Virus record (IMG/VR): IMGVR_UViG_3300036846_000887
Span: 1-52,373 of that record
DNA: 52,373 bases
Source: a virus
Direction: 5' to 3' (one strand)
Both the position numbers and the translations under genes were made by a program. Positions 5,367-45,821 of the stretch are shown one piece after another (position 1 is the first letter of the stretch; each line of letters begins with the position of its first letter). The notes under the pieces are model-generated. The model ran no database searches and was not told the DNA's origin. It saw only the letters and a list, made by a program, of their open reading frames with translations.

Positions 5367-5380
5367 CTTAGTTGACTAAG
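5367..5380. promoter_or_regulatory. Dispersed operator 9
   Basis: CTTAGTTGACTAAG, centre TG, in GGCTTAGTTGACTAAGCC. In the P3 leader before the gene at 5403. Confidence 0.85.
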
Positions 5381-5402
5381 CCACACCGAACGGAGCAGCA
5401 CC

Positions 5403-5741
5403 ATGCAGGACAGCATCAACAACACCGTCCGCCAGGCCGTCGGCCCGGTCCCGCCCGGCTACGGCGAGATCGTCACCGACGCCATCGCGGCGCTGGAGAA
5501 GCGGGAGCAGGCCATCGTCGACGAGCTGGCCGAGCGGGCGGCACGAGAGGGCCTCTCCGCCACCCTCGTGACCGAGGCGCTGCGGGACGCCGGCCTGAGC
5601 GCTGGCCCGGAACAGGCCAACGGCTACGACGAGGCGATCCGGTTGATGAACCAGGCCAACCGGCTCATCGAGCAGGCCAACACGGCGATGACGAAGCAGC
5701 GCGAGGACGACGCCGCCAGGCTCTCAGAACAACCGTTCTAG
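5403..5741 (+). CDS. Hypothetical helical protein (112 aa)
   Basis: ATG 5403 follows GAACGGAGCAGCACC and an operator (5367-5380). The product is helical throughout with alanine/glutamate runs and a repeated asparagine motif (MNQANRLIEQANTAM). No family recognised. It is followed within ten bases by the best rho-independent terminator in the window (5750-5796), so it is probably a monocistronic transcript from P3. Confidence 0.7.
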   Translation: MQDSINNTVRQAVGPVPPGYGEIVTDAIAALEKREQAIVDELAERAAREGLSATLVTEALRDAGLSAGPEQANGYDEAIRLMNQANRLIEQANTAMTKQREDDAARLSEQPF

Positions 5742-5819: not shown

Positions 5820-6137
5820 GTGACCAAACCAGAGTTAGTGTTCCGCGACCCGCCGCCGTGGCGGCGTGCCGCCAAGACCGACTGGGCGTCGGTCGCCAGG
5901 CAGTTGATGGACAACCCCGGCCGATGGGCGATGGTGCTGGAGTCGGCGCCGTTCTCCACCTTCAGCGCGCTGCGCAACCAGGACATCAACGCGCTGAAGC
6001 GCGCCCGCGGGTTCTCCTACGTCACCCGTCGTAACAAGGTGGGCAGCGACGGGCGCCGGTACTGCGACATATACATCAGGTTCGACCCGCCTACACAGGA
6101 AGACGAGGACGGCCATGCTCCCCAAGATAACGGTTGA
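5820..6137 (+). CDS. Hypothetical protein preceding SSB (105 aa)
   Basis: GTG 5820 is preceded by CGGAGGGCAGTA, a strong Shine-Dalgarno site, so it is favoured over the in-frame start 5775, which lies inside the terminator stem. The product is basic; ALKRARGFSYVTRRNKVG suggests nucleic-acid contact. It overlaps ssb by 23 bases and is probably coupled to it. Small proteins with a similar YVTRR-type core occur next to replication genes in actinophages; function unknown. Confidence 0.7.
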   Translation: MTKPELVFRDPPPWRRAAKTDWASVARQLMDNPGRWAMVLESAPFSTFSALRNQDINALKRARGFSYVTRRNKVGSDGRRYCDIYIRFDPPTQEDEDGHAPQDNG

Positions 6138-6615
6138 GGGCCGCATCACCGCCGACCCGGAACTTCGCTTCACTCAGTCGGGCGACGCGGTAGCGTCGTT
6201 CACCGTCGTGAGCCAGGACCGGAAGAAGGGAGATGACGGTAAGTGGATCGACGCCGGTGAGGCGATGTTCCTGCGGGTGAGCGTCTGGCGCCAGTACGCG
6301 GAGAACGTCGCCGAGTCATTACTGAAGGGCGACTCGGTGGTCGTCACCGGCAAGCTCGGGCAGCGTTCCTACACCGACCGGGAGGGCAACAAGCGGACCA
6401 GCTTCGAGATCCAGGCGGACGAGATCGCGGTGCCGTTGCGGTTCCGCACGGTGCGTCATGGTGAGGGACGGGCGGAGCGGGGCAGTCAGCAGCGGCAGGC
6501 ACCGGCCGACGACCCGTGGGCGTCGGTGCCGGCGGGCGGCGGAAGCGGTGACCCGTGGGCGTCGGACGAGCCACCGTTCCACCATGACCCGGCAATGAAC
6601 GGCTTAGTCAACTAA
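6115..6615 (+). CDS. ssb: Single-stranded DNA-binding protein
   Basis: 166 residues. The N-terminal OB fold is typical of bacterial SSB: ITVEGRITADPELRF, then ASFTVVSQDRK, FLRVSVWRQYAENVAESLLK and GDSVVVTGKL. A disordered linker follows (residues ~115-150). SSB proteins normally end in an acidic tip; here DEPPF is present but is followed by 11 extra residues, the last four of which (GLVN and stop) are encoded by the operator 6603-6616. It coats ssDNA during phage replication and recombination. Confidence 0.95.
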   Translation: MLPKITVEGRITADPELRFTQSGDAVASFTVVSQDRKKGDDGKWIDAGEAMFLRVSVWRQYAENVAESLLKGDSVVVTGKLGQRSYTDREGNKRTSFEIQADEIAVPLRFRTVRHGEGRAERGSQQRQAPADDPWASVPAGGGSGDPWASDEPPFHHDPAMNGLVN

Positions 6616-6935: not shown

Positions 6936-6938
6936 AGC

Positions 6939-7100
6939 ATGAGAGTGCCGGCGGCATCGCTTGCAAGGCTTTGCCACCGGCGCTCGATGCCACCGCCAGG
7001 GTACGGAGCAACGCCCCTCATGCGCTGGCGCCACAAGGGTATCGAAGCCACGCAGGTGGTGGGAGGATGCCTTGATACACAAGACGATCGCCCCGGCTAG
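6939..7100 (+). CDS. Possible small protein, weakly supported
   Basis: An open frame of 53 codons from ATG 6939, four bases after the preceding stop. An internal ATG at 7019 is preceded by ACGGAGCA, the phage's start-associated motif, and would give a 27-residue product (MRWRHKGIEATQ...). The stop lies in the loop of a hairpin (7086-7116). Codon use is not convincing and the region could be a non-coding RNA or leader instead. Confidence 0.25.
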   Translation: MRVPAASLARLCHRRSMPPPGYGATPLMRWRHKGIEATQVVGGCLDTQDDRPG

Positions 7101-7116
7101 CAGGGCCGAGGCGATC
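7086..7116 (+). terminator. Hairpin before replication initiator
   Basis: Arms 7086-7097 and 7105-7116 pair with one mismatch (GATCGCC/GGCGATC plus CGGC/GCCG), 7-base loop. No U tract. Lies 87 bases before the initiator gene. Confidence 0.45.
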
Positions 7117-7203
7117 TAACGACTGGATTGGTGGTCCGGTGCGCCGTCGCTATGCAACTTTACAGCAAGCGGCCGGGTCCCCTCCAGAGATCGAGGGGAA
7201 CGC

Positions 7204-7839
7204 ATGAGTAACAAACTGCTCACCGAGGTTCTGGACAGCGCGCCGTTCGGCGGCACGAAGCTGCTGACGCTGGTGGTGCTCGCCGACTTCGCCAACGACG
7301 ACGGCGAGTGCTGGCCCTCGATCGACACCCTCGCGGCCCGCGCGAGGGTGGGTCGGCGTTGGGTGCTCCGGATCCTCGACGAGCTGGAGGCTGACGGCTG
7401 GGTGGTCCGCAAACCGCGGCGCGGACGAGCGACCGTCTACTTCGTCTCACCCGTCGCAGGGGGTGGCCTACAGACCACGGGTGGCGTGCAGGCCACGGGT
7501 GGCCTACAGACCACAGGAGGGGTGGCCTACAGACCACGGGGGGGTGGCCTACAGACCACCCAGAACCCAAAGGAACCTAGAACCAGCAGCAGCGCGCGTG
7601 CGCGCGAGGCCGACGGGTTGGTCACCAAGTGGCGGACCGACGCCGCCAAGTGGATCGACCGGTACACCGCCGTCCCCACCGAGGCGTTCCTCGACGAGTT
7701 CGAGATCAAGATGCGGGAGCGCCGCGAGCAGCCGAGCACCTCGATGGCGATCAACTGGGCGAAGCGGGAGCAGGAGAACCTGGCCCAGCATCCGCAGCCG
7801 TCGGCGCTGCACCATCCCGGCTGGGAGTTCGGTCAGTGA
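7204..7839 (+). CDS. Replication initiator-like protein with internal iterons
   Basis: 211 residues; ATG 7204 follows GAGGGGAACGC. The N-terminal ~90 residues form a winged helix: DDGECWPSIDTLAARARVG is typical of phage replisome organisers, then WVLRILDELEADGWV. A glycine/threonine-rich repeat section (~87-122) is the translation of five DNA iterons (7462-7559). The C-terminal ~90 residues (WRTDAAKWIDRYTAVPTEAF) probably contact the helicase. It is coupled to the helicase gene by GTGA. A lambda O-like or primosomal initiator role is inferred from domain, iterons and neighbour. Confidence 0.8.
   Translation: MSNKLLTEVLDSAPFGGTKLLTLVVLADFANDDGECWPSIDTLAARARVGRRWVLRILDELEADGWVVRKPRRGRATVYFVSPVAGGGLQTTGGVQATGGLQTTGGVAYRPRGGGLQTTQNPKEPRTSSSARAREADGLVTKWRTDAAKWIDRYTAVPTEAFLDEFEIKMRERREQPSTSMAINWAKREQENLAQHPQPSALHHPGWEFGQ
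7462..7559. repeat. Five iterons, candidate replication origin
   Basis: GGTGGCCTACAGACCAC at 7462-7478, 7498-7514, 7521-7537 and 7543-7559, with a variant (GGTGGCGTGCAGGCCAC) at 7480-7496. Each unit is also an imperfect palindrome (GTGGCCT AC AGACCAC). Spacings are 18, 18, 23 and 22 bases. They lie inside the initiator gene, like lambda ori inside O. Confidence 0.8.
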
Positions 7840-9098
7840 CCACACCGCGCGAGCCCGGCTCGGAGTCCTACGTCCTGTCGGCGATGCTGCACTCCGAGGC
7901 CGCCTGCCGGATCGGGGTGCGGCAGCTATCCGCGGACGACTTCTACGAACAGCGCAACGCGCTGGTGTTCACCACGATCGCCGGGCTGGTGGATCGCGGT
8001 GCGCCGGTGGACCCGGTCAGCGTGGAGCAGACCGCCCGGTTGCAGCTGCGCAAGTTCGGCGGGGCCGTCGTCATCGCCGACCTGATCGGCGCGGCACCGA
8101 CCGCGGTGAACGTCGAGTGGCACATCGACATGCTGCGGCACGCCTCGCAGCGCAGGCAGCTGCTGCAGGTCAGCGAACGGCTGCATCAGGTCGCGCTCGG
8201 CGAGACGGCCGACCTCACCGACCGGATCGCCGAGTCGGAGCAGGAGCTGGGCTACATCCGCACGGCCTCCCTCGGTGACGGCCCGGTGCCGGGACTGTCC
8301 CTCATCGACGACTGGCTCGGCGACGCGGACGAGGCCGAGGACTGGGTGGTGCCGGGCCTGATCGCACCGGCCGACGTCATGCTGCTGCTCGCCCCGCCCG
8401 GCATCGGCAAGTCGGTGCTGTCCCGCCAGCTGGTGATGAGCTTGGCTGCCGGCGTACACCCACTGCGGCCGGAGCTTCGGATCGAGCCGCGCACCGCGAT
8501 GCTGGTCGACCTGGAGAATCCGTCCCGCGACGCCCGTGCCGACACCCGCAAGCTGCGGGTGCAGCTGTCCCTGATCGGTGAGTGGGTACCGCAGCGGGCG
8601 GTCATCCTGTACCGGCCGGAGGGTCTGGACCTGCGCAGGCCGCGCTTCGCCGACGAGTTCGAGCGGGCGATCGAGCAGCACCGCCCGGCGCTGGTGTGCC
8701 TGGGCTCGCTCTACAAGGCGGCGCCGAAGGGGCGCGACGACTGGGACACCGCGGCCGACGAGGCGCGGGCGGTGTTCGACCGGCTGCGCTCGGACTATGG
8801 CTTCGCGCTGTGGCTGGAGCACCACATGAACAAGCTCACCCAGTACGACCCGGCGATGGGGTCGCCGTACGGCTCCTCGATCTGGGAGCGGTGGCCGTCC
8901 TACGGCCGGGTGCTGCGCCGGATCGACGACACGAACTACGAGCTGTCCAAGCCGTTCCGCGGTGACCGGGCGGAGCGGGAGATCCCGGCCGGTCTGCACC
9001 GGGGCGGCCTGCTGCCGTGGTCACCGATCTGGGACCGGGAGGAGGTGGAGATCCACAAGGAACGGGCCAGGCCCCGCACCCCCAAGCCTGTGAACTAG
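7836..9098 (+). CDS. Replicative DnaB/RepA-type helicase
   Basis: 420 residues from GTG 7836, overlapping the initiator stop. The N-terminal ~130 residues match the DnaB N-terminal helical domain (ESYVLSAMLHSEAACRIGVR, then DDFYEQRNALVFTTIAGLVD). The C-terminal RecA-like ATPase has Walker A APPGIGKS (~residue 187), a probable Walker B-type strand (PALVCLGSLY) and WLEHHMNK as a sensor segment. It unwinds phage DNA at the fork. The C-terminal half resembles RepA/AAA_25 more than classical DnaB. Its stop codon overlaps the GTGAACTA box of promoter P4. Confidence 0.85.
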   Translation: MTTPREPGSESYVLSAMLHSEAACRIGVRQLSADDFYEQRNALVFTTIAGLVDRGAPVDPVSVEQTARLQLRKFGGAVVIADLIGAAPTAVNVEWHIDMLRHASQRRQLLQVSERLHQVALGETADLTDRIAESEQELGYIRTASLGDGPVPGLSLIDDWLGDADEAEDWVVPGLIAPADVMLLLAPPGIGKSVLSRQLVMSLAAGVHPLRPELRIEPRTAMLVDLENPSRDARADTRKLRVQLSLIGEWVPQRAVILYRPEGLDLRRPRFADEFERAIEQHRPALVCLGSLYKAAPKGRDDWDTAADEARAVFDRLRSDYGFALWLEHHMNKLTQYDPAMGSPYGSSIWERWPSYGRVLRRIDDTNYELSKPFRGDRAEREIPAGLHRGGLLPWSPIWDREEVEIHKERARPRTPKPVN

Positions 9099-9099
9099 C

Positions 9100-9153
9100 T
9101 TGACAAATGACTAGAAGTGTGGTATAATAGATGGGTAGGGACAGAACTGTCCC
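9100..9153 (+). promoter_or_regulatory. Early promoter P4 with 5' hairpin
   Basis: Perfect TTGACA (9100-9105), 17-base spacer, TATAAT (9123-9128). GTGAACTA (9090-9097) is two bases upstream of the -35 and overlaps the helicase stop codon. Hairpin GGGACA/TGTCCC (9138-9143/9148-9153) begins near +3; operator 9162-9175 follows. The layout is the same as P1. Confidence 0.9.
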
Positions 9154-9161
9154 GAAAGCCG

Positions 9162-29768: not shown

Positions 29769-32700
29769 TCAGCTGTAGCCCGCCGACACCAGCCGGTTCA
29801 GCACCTGCTGCGCAACGACGACGGTGTCGTTGACCGGCGTGGTCACCTCGATCTTGGCCACGTTCAACTGCTTGGCCACGTACGTGCCGCCGGAGAACTG
29901 GGCCGGCAGTGCGCTCACGTTCTCCGGCAACGCCTTGCCCTGCGCCAGCGCGGACAGTGCCCGCACCGCCGGGTCCACCATCGACAGCGGCTGGTCCAGC
30001 GGCACCACCGCCTCCGGGCCCGCCTCGCCGAGCAGCCGCACCTGCGGACCGAGGAACAACCCGCCGGTCGCCGTGCCCGGGATGCCGACGGCATGCAGGA
30101 TGGACTTCGCGATCCCGGCGCCGGGCAGCCTGTTCAGCGCACCGAGAATCTGCCCCACCCAGTAGCTGACCGCCTGGTAGGCGTTGCCGAGCCAGCCGGT
30201 GATGGAGGACCAGATGCCCTCGAAGGCGCTGCTGACGCCGCTAACCACGCCACCGAACGCACCGCTGATGTCGCCGGCGATCCGCTGCGCACCGGACAGG
30301 GCGGCGCCCGCGGCGCTGGCCAGCGCACCGCCGACCGCACCGGGGATGCCGCCGAGCGCCCTAGCGACGTCACCGGGGATCCTGCCGACCCAGGTCAGGA
30401 TGTCGTTCCAGATCCGGTTGGCCCAGGTGTAGGCGGCGCCGGCGGCAGCGGCCAGTGCGTTGCCGACCGTGCCGGGCACCCCGGACATCGCCCGAGCAAC
30501 GTCACCGGGGATGCGGCTGACCCAGTTGAGGATGTCGTTCCAGATCCGGTTGGCCCAGGTGTAGGCAGTGCCCGCGGCGCTGATGAGCGGGCCGGCTACC
30601 GCGCCCGGCACGCCGGCCAGCGCGTGGGCGATCTTGCCGGGCAGCCCGCCGAACCAGCTCACGATCCCGTTCACCAGGTCGGGGATCAGCGAGTGGCCGA
30701 GCAGGAAGTCATACGCGGTGACGAACGGCCACTCGATCCAGTGCAGGATGTCCTTGCCCCAGCCCTCGATCACCTTCGCCAGGTAGTTCACGTCGAAGTA
30801 GTGGGCGAATCCCATGAACGCCTTGTCGACGTCGTCGAACGCCTTCTTCAACCCGCCGACCACCCCCGGGAAGGCCCGGATGATGCCGAACAGAACCCGG
30901 GCCGGGGTGGTGGCCACCTGGAGCGCGGTGGGCAGGATCTTCAGGCCGCCGTTGAGGATGGTGAAGAACGTCTGCAGGTTCTTGCGGGACTGCGGTGAGT
31001 CCAGGTAGTCGAACAGCGCGACGATGTCTTTCAGGATCGGGCCGAGGTCGTGGATGACCTGCTTGGCCTCACCGAACCACTTGGTCAGCGCCTCCCGGCC
31101 CTGCGGTGACTTCAGGTACTTGTCGAGGTTGGCCAGCGAGGAGTTGATCGAGTCCAGGAAACCGCCGCCGGTCTTGACCGCGGCGGGATTGAAGAACACA
31201 TCGCCGATGACCTTGCCCAGGTTGACGATGATGTCCCACAGCTTCTTCGCGTCCTGCCACGCGGTGGACAGGAAGTTGTGGATCGCGCTCTGCCCCTTGG
31301 CCGAGTCGGCCCAGTTGCTGAACTTGGTCGCGATGGTGTCGATCGCACCGGCCAGCCGCTGCCCGTACGGCAGCATCGCCTGGAACATCCGGCCGAAGCC
31401 GTCACCGAACTTCACCGCCGAATCGCCCAGGCTGACGATCATCGCGGGCAGGTCCTTGCCGAGCAGCTTGATGAAGTTCAGGAAGTCGGGGTCCTTGCTG
31501 GCCTTGGCGAACCCGTCGACCACCTTGCCGATCGCGTCGGCGATACCGGCGACCAGGCCGAGCAGCGGCCCGAACGCCGTCGAGAAGTCCTTGGCGTCCT
31601 GCTTGGCGTTGGCGAACAGGTGCTGCTGGGCGACGGTGCGGGCCTGGGTGACGAAGTTGGTGAGCGGTTTGGCCAGGGTGGCCAGGTCGGAGTTGACCGT
31701 CGCCTGCGCCTTGTGCTGCGCGGCGAGCGAGGTGTTTAGGTTGTCGACCGCGTTCTTGTAGGCGGTGGTGCCCGGCTTGGCCGCGGCGACCGCCTTCTGG
31801 TAGGTGGCGACCTGCTTGTTGATGGTGTTCAGGTTCGACTGCGCGGTCTTGGACGCCTGTGACTGTCCGGAGATCGCGAGGAACAGCACCCCGAAGCCGG
31901 CGGCGGCGGCGAGCAGCAGCGGCGCGATCCCGGCCAGCGCGCCGATCAGGCCGGTCGCGACCGCGCCGGTCAGTGCCACCAGCGCCCCGACCAGCCCCCA
32001 GACCAGTGACACCAGCGGGCCGACGAGAATTATCAGGCCCTCGATCAGGACCGAGACCCCGATGATGCCGCCGATGCCGGTGCCGCCCAGCTGCGCCAGT
32101 TTCGGCAGGATCCCGCTGACGGAGCTGGTCATGTTCGACGCCTCGTCGGAGGCATCGCCCATCTTCGACGCCAGGCCGGCGACGCCCTCGGCGGCCTTGG
32201 GTAGCAGGCCGGTCAGGCCGACCAGGTTGCCGATCGAGGAGCCGATGATGTTGAAGAAGTTGTTCCGGCTGCCGGCACCGAACGCCTTGCCGATCGAGGT
32301 GGCGAACTTGTCGATCCCGGTGGCCGCGTCCTTGCTCCACTTCACGACGCTGCCCAGCGTGCCGGTTCTGTTGTCCGAGTCCGCGCTCTTGTTGTCCTTG
32401 TCCAGCTTCGCCTTCAGCTCGTTGTAGGTGTTGTGCAGCGCGTGCAGCGCCTTCTCGGCGTTGTTGGCGCCCATCGTCCACTCGGGCAGCTGCGGCCCGA
32501 TGAACTCCTTGTTCAGCGCGTCCAGCGCCCTGGCCGCGCTGGAGACCCCCTCGGCCCACTTCGGCAGGTCCGGGCCGTGCATGAACGAGTTCATCTTCTC
32601 CAGCTCGGCGGCCATCTTCTCCATCTCGGCCCGGGCCGCCTTCTCCGCGTTCAGCAGCGGGCCGCGCAGGTCGGCGGTGAACTGCCGGGTGCCGTCGTCA

Positions 32701-37857: not shown

Positions 37858-39540
37858 TCAGGAGGTCATGCAGGCGGCGACGTTCGCCGTGCCGGTGTGG
37901 CCGGAGGAGCAGACCGGGACGGTGACCGCGAACGCCTTGTAGCACATCTGCGCGATCAGGATGCCCTGCTCGTAGAACAGCGCCGTGTAGATGTTGGTCA
38001 CCAGCGACGCCGCGTCGTAGACCGCGTTGAGGTTGATGACGTCGGCGGTGCCCTTGACGAACGTGCCGGCCGGGTAGACCAGCGCGGTGAACGTGGTCGG
38101 GTAGTGCAGCGCACCCAGCGTCAGGTCCTGCCAGTCGTAGACGAAGGACACGTTCAGGTGCCGGTTGGCGAACTCGGCCGCGATGTCGGCGTCGGTGACG
38201 GCCGCAGTGTCGCGACCCATCCGGATCGCCAGGTCGGAGCGGATCGCGCCCTTGACCCAGAACGGCACGACCACCTCCATCGTGGAGGTGATGCCGAAGC
38301 GGTAGTTGTCGCGGACGCCGTCGGCGATCAGCTCCAGGTAGCCGAGGGTGTTCTGCGCGGTGGAGGTCAGGTCGGTCGGCGCGAGCGCGGCACCGGCCGC
38401 CGTCACCATCGCGTTAAGCACCTTGGCGTTCATCTTGTGCTGGTGGGCGATCATGCCGCCGGTGACCCAGCGTTGCACCAGCTCCGGGTAGGCGGCGTTG
38501 GTGAGGATCGGCGCCTTGATGCACAGCCCGCAGGCGTCGAGGCGGATGTCGGTGAAGTTCGGGCAGGGCACCTCGTAGCAGGTCTTGGCGGTGCCGGAGA
38601 TCGCCTGCGCCTCGGTCTGGCAGAAGCCGACGTTGGAGTAGATCGAGGAGAAGTCCGGCCCGGAGGTGAACTTGATACCACCGCGGGTGACGTTCACCTC
38701 GGGAATGGACAGGATGCCCTCCAGCGTCTCGCCAGAGCAGAAGCCGTACATGACCTCGCTCGGCGCGCACCAGCCGCCGGAGGCGGTCAGCGACTTGCCG
38801 GGCAGCCGGCTCTCATCGCCGGCGTGCCGCAGGATCTCCAGCGCCCGGTCGGTGTCGGCCACGTCGATGGTGAGGTCTTCGGGGTAGTCCACCCGGAAGC
38901 TGGCCACGCCGTAGTGGCGCAGATCCTCTGACATCCCGTCGCCGTTGGGCGGCCGGAAGTTCTTCATCCGGTTGATGAGCGCCTTGGTGACCCCGCGCAG
39001 GTCGGGGATGTCGGAGCCGGTGGCGAACTCGGGCACGTCGGCGGCCGCGGTGATCGCCACCCGCGGCTGGTTTGTCGGCACCTCGGGCCGGGGTACATGG
39101 ATGTCGACGGAGAACTTGCGGCGCTGCTCGGGTGCCGGCGGCGGCTCGGGCGGCGGGTCGGGCTGCGGCTCGGTCGACGCGGCGACGCTCTTGGCCGAGC
39201 CGGGCTTGGCCTCTTCGACGTCGTTGGACGGCTCGCCTTCCTGCTCCTCGTCGTTGTTGGTGTCGTCGTTCGGGTTGGACCCGCGGACCGGGGTGTTGCT
39301 GAACCGGTCGCGCAGTCTGCCCACCCGGCTGTTCAGGGCGGCGGCTGCGGCGCCGCGGCTGGTGACTTCGTTCTCGACCCGGTCGAGCTGCACCGCGAGT
39401 GCTTCGGCTTCCTCGACCTGGGGGATGGTGGGGTTCTCCGCGTTGACCAGCTCGGACAGCGCCTGGCGCACCTGCTGGTGCAGTTCGGCCAGCTGCTCGT
39501 CACTGAGGTCGGCGAAGGATTCGGGGATCTCGATGTCCAC
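37858..39540 (-). CDS. Major capsid protein with N-terminal scaffold-like domain
   Basis: 560 residues from GTG 39540 (AACGAGGAGACCATC upstream; further upstream frame lacks a ribosome site). Residues ~1-110 are acidic/coiled-coil (ADLSDEQLAELHQQVRQALS), like a delta scaffold domain removed by the maturation protease, followed by a proline-rich linker. The HK97-like core starts near 165 and includes KSLTASGGWCAPSEVMYGF and RGGIKFTSGPDFSSIYSNV. The core carries many cysteines (CYEVPCPNF, LDACGLCIKAP). Hexamers and pentamers form the shell. Confidence 0.88.
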   Translation of the reverse strand: MDIEIPESFADLSDEQLAELHQQVRQALSELVNAENPTIPQVEEAEALAVQLDRVENEVTSRGAAAAALNSRVGRLRDRFSNTPVRGSNPNDDTNNDEEQEGEPSNDVEEAKPGSAKSVAASTEPQPDPPPEPPPAPEQRRKFSVDIHVPRPEVPTNQPRVAITAAADVPEFATGSDIPDLRGVTKALINRMKNFRPPNGDGMSEDLRHYGVASFRVDYPEDLTIDVADTDRALEILRHAGDESRLPGKSLTASGGWCAPSEVMYGFCSGETLEGILSIPEVNVTRGGIKFTSGPDFSSIYSNVGFCQTEAQAISGTAKTCYEVPCPNFTDIRLDACGLCIKAPILTNAAYPELVQRWVTGGMIAHQHKMNAKVLNAMVTAAGAALAPTDLTSTAQNTLGYLELIADGVRDNYRFGITSTMEVVVPFWVKGAIRSDLAIRMGRDTAAVTDADIAAEFANRHLNVSFVYDWQDLTLGALHYPTTFTALVYPAGTFVKGTADVINLNAVYDAASLVTNIYTALFYEQGILIAQMCYKAFAVTVPVCSSGHTGTANVAACMTS

Positions 39541-42926: not shown

Positions 42927-42940
42927 CTTAGTGGACTAAG
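42927..42940 (-). promoter_or_regulatory. Dispersed operator 23
   Basis: Sense CTTAGTCCACTAAG. Supplies the TAG of the MuF-protease gene; followed by GGAACGGAG before the CGCG-motif gene. Confidence 0.9.
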
Positions 42941-45821
42941 CCAGTCTTCCAGCCAGTGCGGCCATCCGGTCCGCCGCGGTGGTGTGGGTGGCGGCGGCCA
43001 GTTCGCGCATCCGGGCCCGCCGGTCCAGCGCCTGGATCGCCAGGCTCACCAGCATGTCCACGGTCGGCGGCTCGGCCGGGATGCCGGCCGCGACCAGGGA
43101 CACCTGGCGGCCGTTGACGACACCGATCCGCGGGTTCGGGAAGCCGGGCACGTTCACCGCGGCGGCGGCCATCAGCTCCCAGTCGCCGCCGATCTCGCGC
43201 CAGTCGCCGGACAGCTTGGAGGCCAGCAGCTCCTGCCGCTGTTCGGCGGTGGTGGTGGGGCGCATCCCGCCGGAGTACCAGATCCCGATGTCGTCCTCGC
43301 CGACGGTGATGTCGGCGACCGCGGTGGCGACGTTGTCGTAGTGGGCCAGCGCCGCCCGGAAACCGAGGTCGCCGTTGGCGTGCCCGCCGCCGAGCGAGAC
43401 CACCCCCGACGGCAGGTAGCCGCCGGCGTCGGTGGGCGCCAGCCCGAGCAGGAAGTAGGCGTAGCCGGAGGCCGAGTGCGGCGGGCTGACGCACATCTTC
43501 GGGAACGCCACATGGCAGGAGTCCCACTTGCACAGGTGGCCGAAGATCCGGTCGTCGTCGGTGATCGTCATCGGGGTGTAGACGTCCAGCTGCGGGTTGC
43601 CGAAGAACTCCGCCGGGTAGGTCCAGGCGGCGGACGCGGTCAGGCTGACCGCCGAGGAGGACACCCCCTCGCGGATCATCTTGCGGTGGGTGGACGGCCA
43701 GAAGCCGAGCGCGTCGTGGTGCCACTGGGCGCAGATTTGGTTGATGAAGCGCAGCTTCGCGGGTGAGGACTCGCCGATCTCCTCGCCGACCTGCTCGCGG
43801 CAGCGGTTGAAGTCGCCGCCCCTGCCCCAGCCGATCTTGTCCCCGCCCGGGTGACCGGGCATCCAGTAGTCGTGGATGCGCTTGGTCGCCTTCGGGTCGG
43901 TGACCCAGCCCGGTCCCCGGTCGAACGCCTCGGCCTCGGCCTCCTCGGCGGACATCGCGATCGAGTCCGGCGGCGTCTCGCCCAGCTGCTTGTACAGTCC
44001 GCGCAGCGCCGCCTTCGCCGAGGACTTCTCCGACGCGGGCGCGTCCACCCCGCCGCGGCCACCGGCCAGCGCGGATGCGGCGGCGTGCACCCCGGCCCGG
44101 TTGATCGTGCCGGCCGGGGTGCGGACCGGCAGCTTGCAGTCCGCCTTGTTGGTGGGGTCACCGGAGTGCAGGTGGATCAGGCAGGCATCGTGCCACTGCT
44201 GCGGGCTGTAGTCGGACTCGGAGTAGTTCGACCACGGCTTCTCGTCGATGGTCGCGAACTCCGGCCCGTCGCACGGGCAGCCGGCGGCGACCATCGCGGC
44301 CGAGTCCGCCCAGGAGCCGAGCGCGATGAACGCCTCGGTGAACGCCGGGATCGCCACGATCGAGGCGGAGGAGATCCGGGCGTCGGAGAAGGTGACCTGG
44401 CCGGTCTCCTCGTCCAGGTCGAAGGTGGCGTCGTCCAGGTCGACCGACACTCCCATCTTGCCCATCTCGGCGCACATCCCGATCACCTGGTCGGCCTCGG
44501 GCACCGACTGCAGGAAGTGCCCGTCGGCCTTGATGAGGTCGCCGTCGCGGGCGATGTTCTCGATCTGGGCGACGGTGATCGCGCCGCCGTGCCGGTCGGC
44601 GGTGGCCGGCTGCCAGGTCAGCGGCAGCGGCAGGTCGCGGTTGCGCAGCGCGCCGGCGGCGAACCGGCGCTTGTCGCCGGAGGCGACGCCCTCCGGTGCC
44701 AGCACGCCGTGCCACGGGATCGGGTCGGGGACGGTGATCGGCGGCTGCTGCTGCTCGGTCTCGGCTGCTGCTGCGGTGGGCATGGTCGCCTCCAGCGGGT
44801 ACTCGGTCTGCTCGGCACCGTTCCACAGCGCCAGCCGGTCGAAGCCGATCTGCCCCGGCGGGTCGCCGGTGGCCGGTGCCTGCGGGTAGCCGAGGGTGAC
44901 GTGCGGGATCCAGGTGGGGAACTGCTCGGCGGCCTGATGCAGCCCGGCGAGCGCCGGCTGGGCCAACAGGGCGGCCCGGACCTCGGCCAGGTGCTGGGCG
45001 TCCAGCATGACGACGTCGGCCTGGTCGGCGCCCAGGGTGCCGCGCCCGTTCACCGGGTCGGCGAACGGGGCCAGCCGCTGCGCGGCGGTGCCCAGTTCGC
45101 CCTGCGCGGCGGACAGCTGGTCCGGCGCCGGGTCGATGCCGAGGTAGAGCAGGGTGGCGTGCGCGGCCGGTTCGGAGGACACCTGGTTCACCGGGTCGTC
45201 GGCTGCCGGCAGCGCCACCACGACGCAGGGTTTGCCACCGTCGGCGGCGGCCAGCAGCGCGGCGTTGCCGACCAGGTCGGGCCGGGCCAGGCAGCGGCAG
45301 TTGATCCACAGCGCCGGGTCGCCCACCGGGAAACCCGGGTAGGGCATCTGCTGCCCGCCGACGGTGAACTCCTGCCCGGCCGGCACCCGCTGGCCGTCCA
45401 CCTCGGCGTGGGTCTCGCGCACCTTGTCGTCGTGCATGGTGACCCACTCCAGCACCATGTCCTTCTCCTCCACGGTGGCGGCGAAGGTGGTGGCGGCGTT
45501 GACGGCGGAGGTGGCCACCATCCGGGTGACCGCGGCCTGGGTGGTGTCGGTGGGTTCGCTGTCGACCTTGGCCAGGTTGCGGATCAGCGCGGTGCGGTAG
45601 CCGCTGATCTGCTCGTCCAGGTTCGGGTGGTCCGGGCCGCCGTGCTCGTCGCGGAAGGTGTCGCGGTACAGGGTGGTGGCGGCGTCGATGATGGGCAGTG
45701 TCCAGCCGCGCGCCGGCCAGCGGTCCAGGCCGCGCTTGACCGCGTCGGCGACCTGTGACTCGGCCCGGTCCAGCACCGGCTTGCGGTCGGCGGCGAAGGC
45801 GAGCCGTTCTGAGATCCTCAT
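42936..45821 (-). CDS. MuF head morphogenesis - 2H phosphoesterase - maturation protease fusion
   Basis: 961 residues; ATG 45821 overlaps the portal stop (ATGA). Residues ~95-180 are a MuF-like domain (HAEVDGQRVPAGQEF, NCRCL). Residues ~195-345 hold two HxT motifs, H221-A-T223 (AAHATLLYLG) and H307-V-T309 (WIPHVTLGYP), of a 2H phosphoesterase/LigT fold. Residues ~365-505 fit the phage prohead protease (GKMGVSVDLDDATF, SSASIVAIPAFTEAFIAL). Residues ~540-600 carry DCKLPVRTPAGTINRAGVHA, often found on actinophage proteases. The C-terminal ~300 residues are conserved but unnamed. The stop is inside operator 42927-42940. Confidence 0.85.
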   Translation of the reverse strand: MRISERLAFAADRKPVLDRAESQVADAVKRGLDRWPARGWTLPIIDAATTLYRDTFRDEHGGPDHPNLDEQISGYRTALIRNLAKVDSEPTDTTQAAVTRMVATSAVNAATTFAATVEEKDMVLEWVTMHDDKVRETHAEVDGQRVPAGQEFTVGGQQMPYPGFPVGDPALWINCRCLARPDLVGNAALLAAADGGKPCVVVALPAADDPVNQVSSEPAAHATLLYLGIDPAPDQLSAAQGELGTAAQRLAPFADPVNGRGTLGADQADVVMLDAQHLAEVRAALLAQPALAGLHQAAEQFPTWIPHVTLGYPQAPATGDPPGQIGFDRLALWNGAEQTEYPLEATMPTAAAAETEQQQPPITVPDPIPWHGVLAPEGVASGDKRRFAAGALRNRDLPLPLTWQPATADRHGGAITVAQIENIARDGDLIKADGHFLQSVPEADQVIGMCAEMGKMGVSVDLDDATFDLDEETGQVTFSDARISSASIVAIPAFTEAFIALGSWADSAAMVAAGCPCDGPEFATIDEKPWSNYSESDYSPQQWHDACLIHLHSGDPTNKADCKLPVRTPAGTINRAGVHAAASALAGGRGGVDAPASEKSSAKAALRGLYKQLGETPPDSIAMSAEEAEAEAFDRGPGWVTDPKATKRIHDYWMPGHPGGDKIGWGRGGDFNRCREQVGEEIGESSPAKLRFINQICAQWHHDALGFWPSTHRKMIREGVSSSAVSLTASAAWTYPAEFFGNPQLDVYTPMTITDDDRIFGHLCKWDSCHVAFPKMCVSPPHSASGYAYFLLGLAPTDAGGYLPSGVVSLGGGHANGDLGFRAALAHYDNVATAVADITVGEDDIGIWYSGGMRPTTTAEQRQELLASKLSGDWREIGGDWELMAAAAVNVPGFPNPRIGVVNGRQVSLVAAGIPAEPPTVDMLVSLAIQALDRRARMRELAAATHTTAADRMAALAGRLA

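Follow-up and report, generated by a model that had tools for sequence, protein, structure and literature searches.

What purpose does a cluster of nearly identical repeats serve inside the coding sequence of a phage replication initiator, and is it the DNA or the encoded peptide that accounts for its presence? The window, i.e. the whole stretch of DNA analysed, is the entire IMG/VR record IMGVR_UViG_3300036846_000887 (52,373 bases), and its source, judged from the capsid, portal and terminase genes, is an uncultured actinobacterial tailed phage. The initial annotation had taken the locus for a probable origin following lambda O/ori logic. In our reading it is very probably an origin of the lambda O/ori type, situated inside the initiator gene and driving a phage-encoded DnaB-like helicase, for which we infer initiator binding, melting, helicase recruitment and origin activity.

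The initial description of five near-identical 17-bp repeats in 98 bases (7462-7559) of the initiator ORF was confirmed: four are identical and one has 3 mismatches, the shared core being 16 bp and the unit 17 bp when the preceding G is counted. Tandem Repeats Finder and the repeat finder agreed on start-to-start spacings of 18, 18, 23 and 22. A pattern search of the whole record gave 6 matches, one site being counted on each strand, whereas shuffled sequences gave 0.59 +/- 0.78 and none of the 100 shuffles reached 6; no further copy was found outside the array in the 52,373-base record. Read as an inverted repeat, the iteron of the window (GTGGCCT.AC.AGACCAC) pairs at 6 of 7 arm positions, with p = 0.21 when compared with shuffled sequences. 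Of two paired iteron patterns used on the viral and genome contigs searched, the first had no match elsewhere and the second found only one unrelated intergenic palindrome pair. No Rfam family matched at the array or at the leader preceding the gene. A change of GC skew at the array had also been suggested as a check, but no change of sign was seen near 7.5 kb.

The spacings of 23 and 22 place copy 4 in another reading frame and return copy 5 to the original one, so that GGLQTT is encoded three times, GGVQAT once (by the diverged copy) and VAYRPR once. The unit is free of stop codons in all three forward frames, as had been noticed from the VAYRPR reading. Since a selected peptide would not tolerate such a shift in copy 4, the iterons appear to be selected as DNA and not as peptide.

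The protein encoded around the array agrees with the assignment proposed at the outset, a winged-helix initiator with a Gly/Thr linker next to a helicase. Besides phrog_391 it matches further replication PHROG families, and an AlphaFold2 model built with 29 homologs shows a confident N-terminal winged helix, whereas the iteron-encoded residues 87-118 are mostly disordered. Foldseek related the model to MarR-type winged helices and to the plasmid initiators 4pt7/5kbj (RepA structures), and among viral models the best match was annotated as replication protein O. In the Pfam scan only HTH_36 and a weak GntR match were obtained, with none to RepA_N (PF06970). The N-terminal winged helix and the adjoining helicase gene are features of O-like initiators, and the iteron cluster within the coding sequence is a lambda-type feature. 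The likeness to lambda O/ori thus stood in the O-like assignment and, by comparative evidence, in the in-gene iterons; it did not extend to the loader, since the gene downstream is not a P-type loader of host DnaB but itself a DnaB_N/AAA helicase. The Walker A sequence of this helicase is APPGIGKS, and its GTG start overlaps the stop codon of the initiator (GTGA). The features of the region are collected in the table.

Table. Features of the proposed origin and its surroundings, in window coordinates
Feature	Position	Strand	Evidence or remark
SSB gene (single-strand DNA-binding protein)	6115..6615	+	Pfam SSB 1e-26, phrog_44 7e-41; replication region, upstream of initiator
Structured non-coding leader, 268 bases	6936..7203	+	folding z-score -3.35; upstream of initiator
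Initiator gene, O-like winged-helix, 211 aa	7204..7839	+	Pfam HTH_36 8.9e-11; phrog_391 'replication initiation O-like' 8.4e-17
Winged-helix DNA-binding domain, aa 1-81, proposed iteron reader	7204..7446	+	pLDDT 93-98; Foldseek
Iteron 1, GTGGCCTACAGACCAC	7463..7478	+	exact copy
Iteron 2, GTGGCGTGCAGGCCAC, 3 mismatches	7481..7496	+	repeat match
Iteron 3, GTGGCCTACAGACCAC	7499..7514	+	exact copy
Iteron 4, GTGGCCTACAGACCAC, other frame (VAYRPR)	7522..7537	+	exact copy
Iteron 5, GTGGCCTACAGACCAC, nearest the A-rich tract	7544..7559	+	exact copy
Putative unwinding stretch	7551..7590	+	among the least stable 1.7% of the record's 40-mers
Second element, AACC x3 (AACCCAAAGGAACCTAGAACC), three frames	7564..7584	+	degenerate relative of the AACCRTCA triplet of homologs
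C-terminal three-helix domain, aa 132-195, putative helicase contact	7597..7788	+	pLDDT 70-83
DnaB-like helicase gene	7836..9098	+	DnaB_N 3.1e-16, AAA_25 9.6e-21, phrog_19 8.3e-21

Several other elements were observed in the window. The leader contains a 12-pair hairpin at 7086-7116 and may represent an RNA that regulates replication. Directly 3' of the helicase gene a perfect sigma-70-like promoter, TTGACA-N17-TATAAT, is found at 9100-9128, and a sequence resembling it lies at about 770-809. Each of these promoter-like sequences is followed by a copy of the 16-bp palindrome GCTTAGTNNACTAAGC, at 9161 and 838, respectively. The palindrome has 27 copies between 365 and 51436, against 0.3 expected (e.g. 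also at 6602, 27386, 29749 and 42926), mostly shortly upstream of gene starts; its centre is mostly CC in the plus strand gene block and GG in the minus strand block, i.e. its orientation follows transcription, and the sites resemble start-associated or stoperator-type sites of actinophages. On the minus strand, antisense to the early gene block, ARAGORN placed a possibly spurious tRNA-Val (gac) at 5380-5468. A 1132-aa ORF (42936-46334, minus strand) has matches to portal, to head morphogenesis and to head maturation protease-like families and is a possible fusion.

How would such a locus work? The 98 bases would form the initiator-binding half of a theta-type origin located within the gene of its own initiator. 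The winged helix would bind the five near-palindromic iterons, 18-bp-spaced and then 22-23-bp-spaced, into a complex similar to the 'O-some' of lambda, and the strain on the adjoining A-rich, T-poor stretch 7560-7590 (AACC x3) would open the duplex. The C-terminal helical domain would then deliver the phage DnaB-like helicase to the exposed strand, which SSB would subsequently hold. The iteron DNA could be read in two frames because the peptide that it encodes would be a mere flexible linker.

The tract next to the last iteron is extremely strand-asymmetric: 7560-7609 contains 15 A and 2 T, and only 0.34% of comparable 50-mers rank as high in AT skew. With 64% GC it is not AT-rich in the lambda sense, though its duplex is weak for this genome. 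In lambdoid origins the iterons, each of them an inverted repeat, and an AT-rich tract lie inside O (PMC7466680), and the lambda tract has been described as 'highly strand asymmetric' (PMC4488673). The same A-rich, T-poor asymmetry was present in the lambda tract and in 52 of the 56 genes of the AACC set considered below.

In order to place the array among its relatives, the window gene was compared with 37 related or positionally equivalent initiators, lambda O serving as the positive control. Arrays were detected as groups of 16-mers within each gene, up to 3 mismatches being allowed, a single threshold at which diverged copies are missed, and clustering at 50% identity gave 27 groups besides lambda, that of the window counted. 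An array of at least three copies was present in the same linker in 20 of the 27 non-redundant groups, and 18 of these arrays occupy two or three frames; in the controls three copies were reached by 1 of 133 other ORFs of the same loci and by none of 780 codon-shuffled genes. The same code recovered the annotated lambda iterons at 39034, 39054, 39078 and 39101 (39034-39118), which lie in three frames with spacings of 20, 24 and 23. By the 16-mer test no array was seen in L013, L016, L023, L038, L042 and L044. The iteron sequences of different groups are unrelated (TGCCAATTTGGCA in L031, GCAGAATCTGC in L021, CCCCGGCACCAGATGC in L049, TGGGGAAATCCCCCA in L051), and so are the peptides encoded at this position. 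Of 21 consensus iterons examined for palindromy, that of lambda among them, just 7 reached p < 0.05, and palindromy was dropped as main evidence and as a general proof.

Searching viral contigs with the helicase gave no close relatives, and no relative was confirmed in bacterial genomes. The capsid, on the other hand, identified two contigs of the same species, G001 and G002 (about 99% identity), whose alignments stop at 4.7 kb and 10.5 kb of the window, so that neither contig spans the iteron region; the remaining capsid relatives mostly have different replication modules. In G001 (L089 4541-7689) the two window ends are connected through about 3.1 kb. Since it joins both ends, the genome is probably circularly permuted and about 55.5 kb long, with 3.1 kb absent from the window. 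The tape measure gene carries a 132-bp tandem repeat in 2-3 copies at 30300-30672, and same-species contigs also align there.

Many homologs have a second element directly 3' of the iterons, AACCRTCA, in two or three copies at 10-12 bp steps, and its copies are translated as EPS, NHQ/NRH or TIK according to the frame. The linkers contain the relaxed motif A[AT]CC[AGT]T[CA]A at 3.82 per kb, 25 times the density of 0.15 per kb seen elsewhere. When IMG/VR was scanned with the AACCRTCA triplet alone, iterons being disregarded in the selection, at least 120 matches were obtained, against about 0.1 expected by chance over the collection by our own estimate. Eighty loci among the matches were listed, in 58 of which the motif is preceded by 80 or more codons of an untruncated ORF; the counts describe this sample. 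Among the matches listed, 53 of the 58 interpretable loci encode winged-helix O-like initiators, as identified with an HMM from the first gene set. In the non-redundant set of the matches listed, an iteron array accompanies the triplet in 37 of 42 genes; 36 of the 37 arrays lie 5' of the motif, mostly 1-20 bp away, and 34 occupy more than one frame. In 39 of these 42 listed genes the AACC copies themselves are spread over two or three frames. The window tract has no AACCRTCA-type match; its AACC x3, without RTCA, starts 4 bp 3' of the last iteron and is the sole such triplet in 52 kb (0.03 expected). Other repeats stand in some initiators where AACCRTCA would be, CCCGACCCGACCC in L037, L039, L040 and L042, GGGAA in L041 and L044, and AGAGAC in L038. 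Such short-period repeats in initiators of Gordonia and Arthrobacter phages give rise to peptide runs such as TRPDPTRPD and GKGREGKG.

The repeats might be in-gene operators, bound by the initiator only to repress its own operon, with the origin elsewhere, e.g. in the leader or in the AT-rich promoter region 9092-9131. Many winged-helix proteins are indeed repressors and the fold of the initiator is MarR-like, the leader is strongly structured, and no 40-mer of the whole record is less stable than 9092-9131. However, the array is found some 260 bp into the gene and not at a promoter, the iterons of the homologs are paired with a weak, strand-asymmetric 3' tract for which an operator has no need, and the arrays at the same place in lambda and pSK41 are origins (PMC7466680, PMC5703833). 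We therefore consider pure operators improbable.

The spacing of the iterons bears on the question whether they arose by neutral slippage or duplication, the peptide being tolerated and the DNA having no function. The layout was analysed in 56 arrays with 199 spacings, the window and lambda being left out. The distribution is bimodal, with 44 of the 199 spacings at 16-18 bp, 105 at 21-23 bp and a single one at 19-20 bp, and several others (34, 39, 44, 45) correspond to two such steps added together, as would result from a diverged copy in between. Short spacings precede long ones in 19 of the 21 arrays that have both classes (order shuffles: mean 5.0, maximum 13 in 20,000 trials), and 35 of the 56 arrays end, beside the second element, with a spacing of 22. 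The 18,18,23,22 of the window fits this layout exactly, and unrelated phages show similar series (16,17,23,22 in L049; 18,18,22,23 in L147; 17,17,22,22 in L141). Low-complexity linkers expand easily and the encoded segment is predicted to be disordered, as slippage would have it, but repeats within ORFs then keep spacings divisible by 3, as 53 of 65 did in the control ORFs and only 10 of 65 in the initiators. Neither the two classes near 17 and 22 nor the recurrence of unrelated iterons in the same linker in the same order agrees with slippage, which we regard as very improbable. Selection on a protein-level repeat, GGLQTT acting for instance as a helicase-binding or oligomerisation motif, is hardly credible in spite of the one frame shared by 4 of the 5 copies here, because copy 4 reads VAYRPR and the homologous peptides are unrelated. 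The homolog arrays, the mixed frames and the shared spacing support the earlier suggestion that the DNA, rather than the protein sequence, is under selection, and the origin inside the initiator gene stays the preferred explanation.

In a comparison of about 70 related viral genes the site sequences are unrelated, yet their spacing and the short 3' motif seem to keep to a common layout. A wider proposal, to which we give roughly even chances, is that phages with winged-helix O-like initiators have in common a sequence-independent origin layout, placed inside the initiator gene in any frame: 17-bp-spaced iterons, 22-bp-spaced iterons and finally AACCRTCA at 10-12 bp steps, a conserved A/C-rich element that would act as a strand-opening or helicase-loading signal. 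The letters of the iterons would change freely with the initiator while geometry and second element stay, and the window would be an actinophage case with a degenerate second element. The odd low-complexity linkers (EPS/NHQ/TIK, GGLQTT/VAYRPR) would then be translated origin DNA. Neither the 17/22 order of spacings nor an AACCRTCA element was found described in the open literature searched, with subscription journals mostly outside it.

In-gene origins have so far been recognised case by case. They are established for lambda and the Stx phages (PMC7466680, PMC4488673) and for RepA_N plasmids (PMC5703833); for P1 oriL the evidence is good, synonymous changes in the AT2 tract lowering activity (PMC9948254); and for mycobacteriophage RepA an in-gene origin was considered, the repeats not being found there (PMC7157519). 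The present evidence would turn these cases into a rule usable on uncultured viruses, by which an origin could be read from sequence iteron by iteron, spacing and AACCRTCA predicting the arrangement for DNA opening and helicase loading.

Among the known systems, lambda O/ori-lambda and the O/ori of Stx phages share with the window the origin in the initiator gene and the iterons, in several frames, in the linker that follows the N-terminal DNA-binding domain; in lambda a strand-asymmetric A-rich tract also lies 3' of the last iteron. Unlike the window, lambda has four iterons at its own spacings and of unrelated sequence, and uses loader P with host DnaB where the window has a coupled DnaB-like helicase gene; the GC content of the window tract is a further difference. 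The RepA_N plasmid pSK41 likewise has a winged-helix initiator, with an ori of four Rep boxes central in rep and an ori-encoded linker that is dispensable (PMC5703833), and RepA structures were among the Foldseek matches; the window protein, however, has no RepA_N Pfam match, the C-terminal domain of the pSK41 protein contacts DnaG primase, and the family belongs to Gram-positive plasmids. P1 repL/oriL is also a lytic origin inside an initiator gene, but the protein is different and the origin is defined by an AT-rich tract, not by an iteron array. In the Ruthgordonvirinae Gordonia phages (Schmidt, Catfish, Vendetta, Dardanus, Gsput1, TinaLin) the initiator is again followed by a DnaB-like helicase, four of these phages have 22-bp-spaced in-gene repeats in 2-3 copies, and several have a short-period element after them; their N-terminal domain is different, the second element consists of CCCGACCCGACCC or GGGAA repeats, and their SSB lies downstream whereas that of the window is upstream. 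The window itself would thus be a variant of the known in-gene origins, whereas what may be new is the shared layout.
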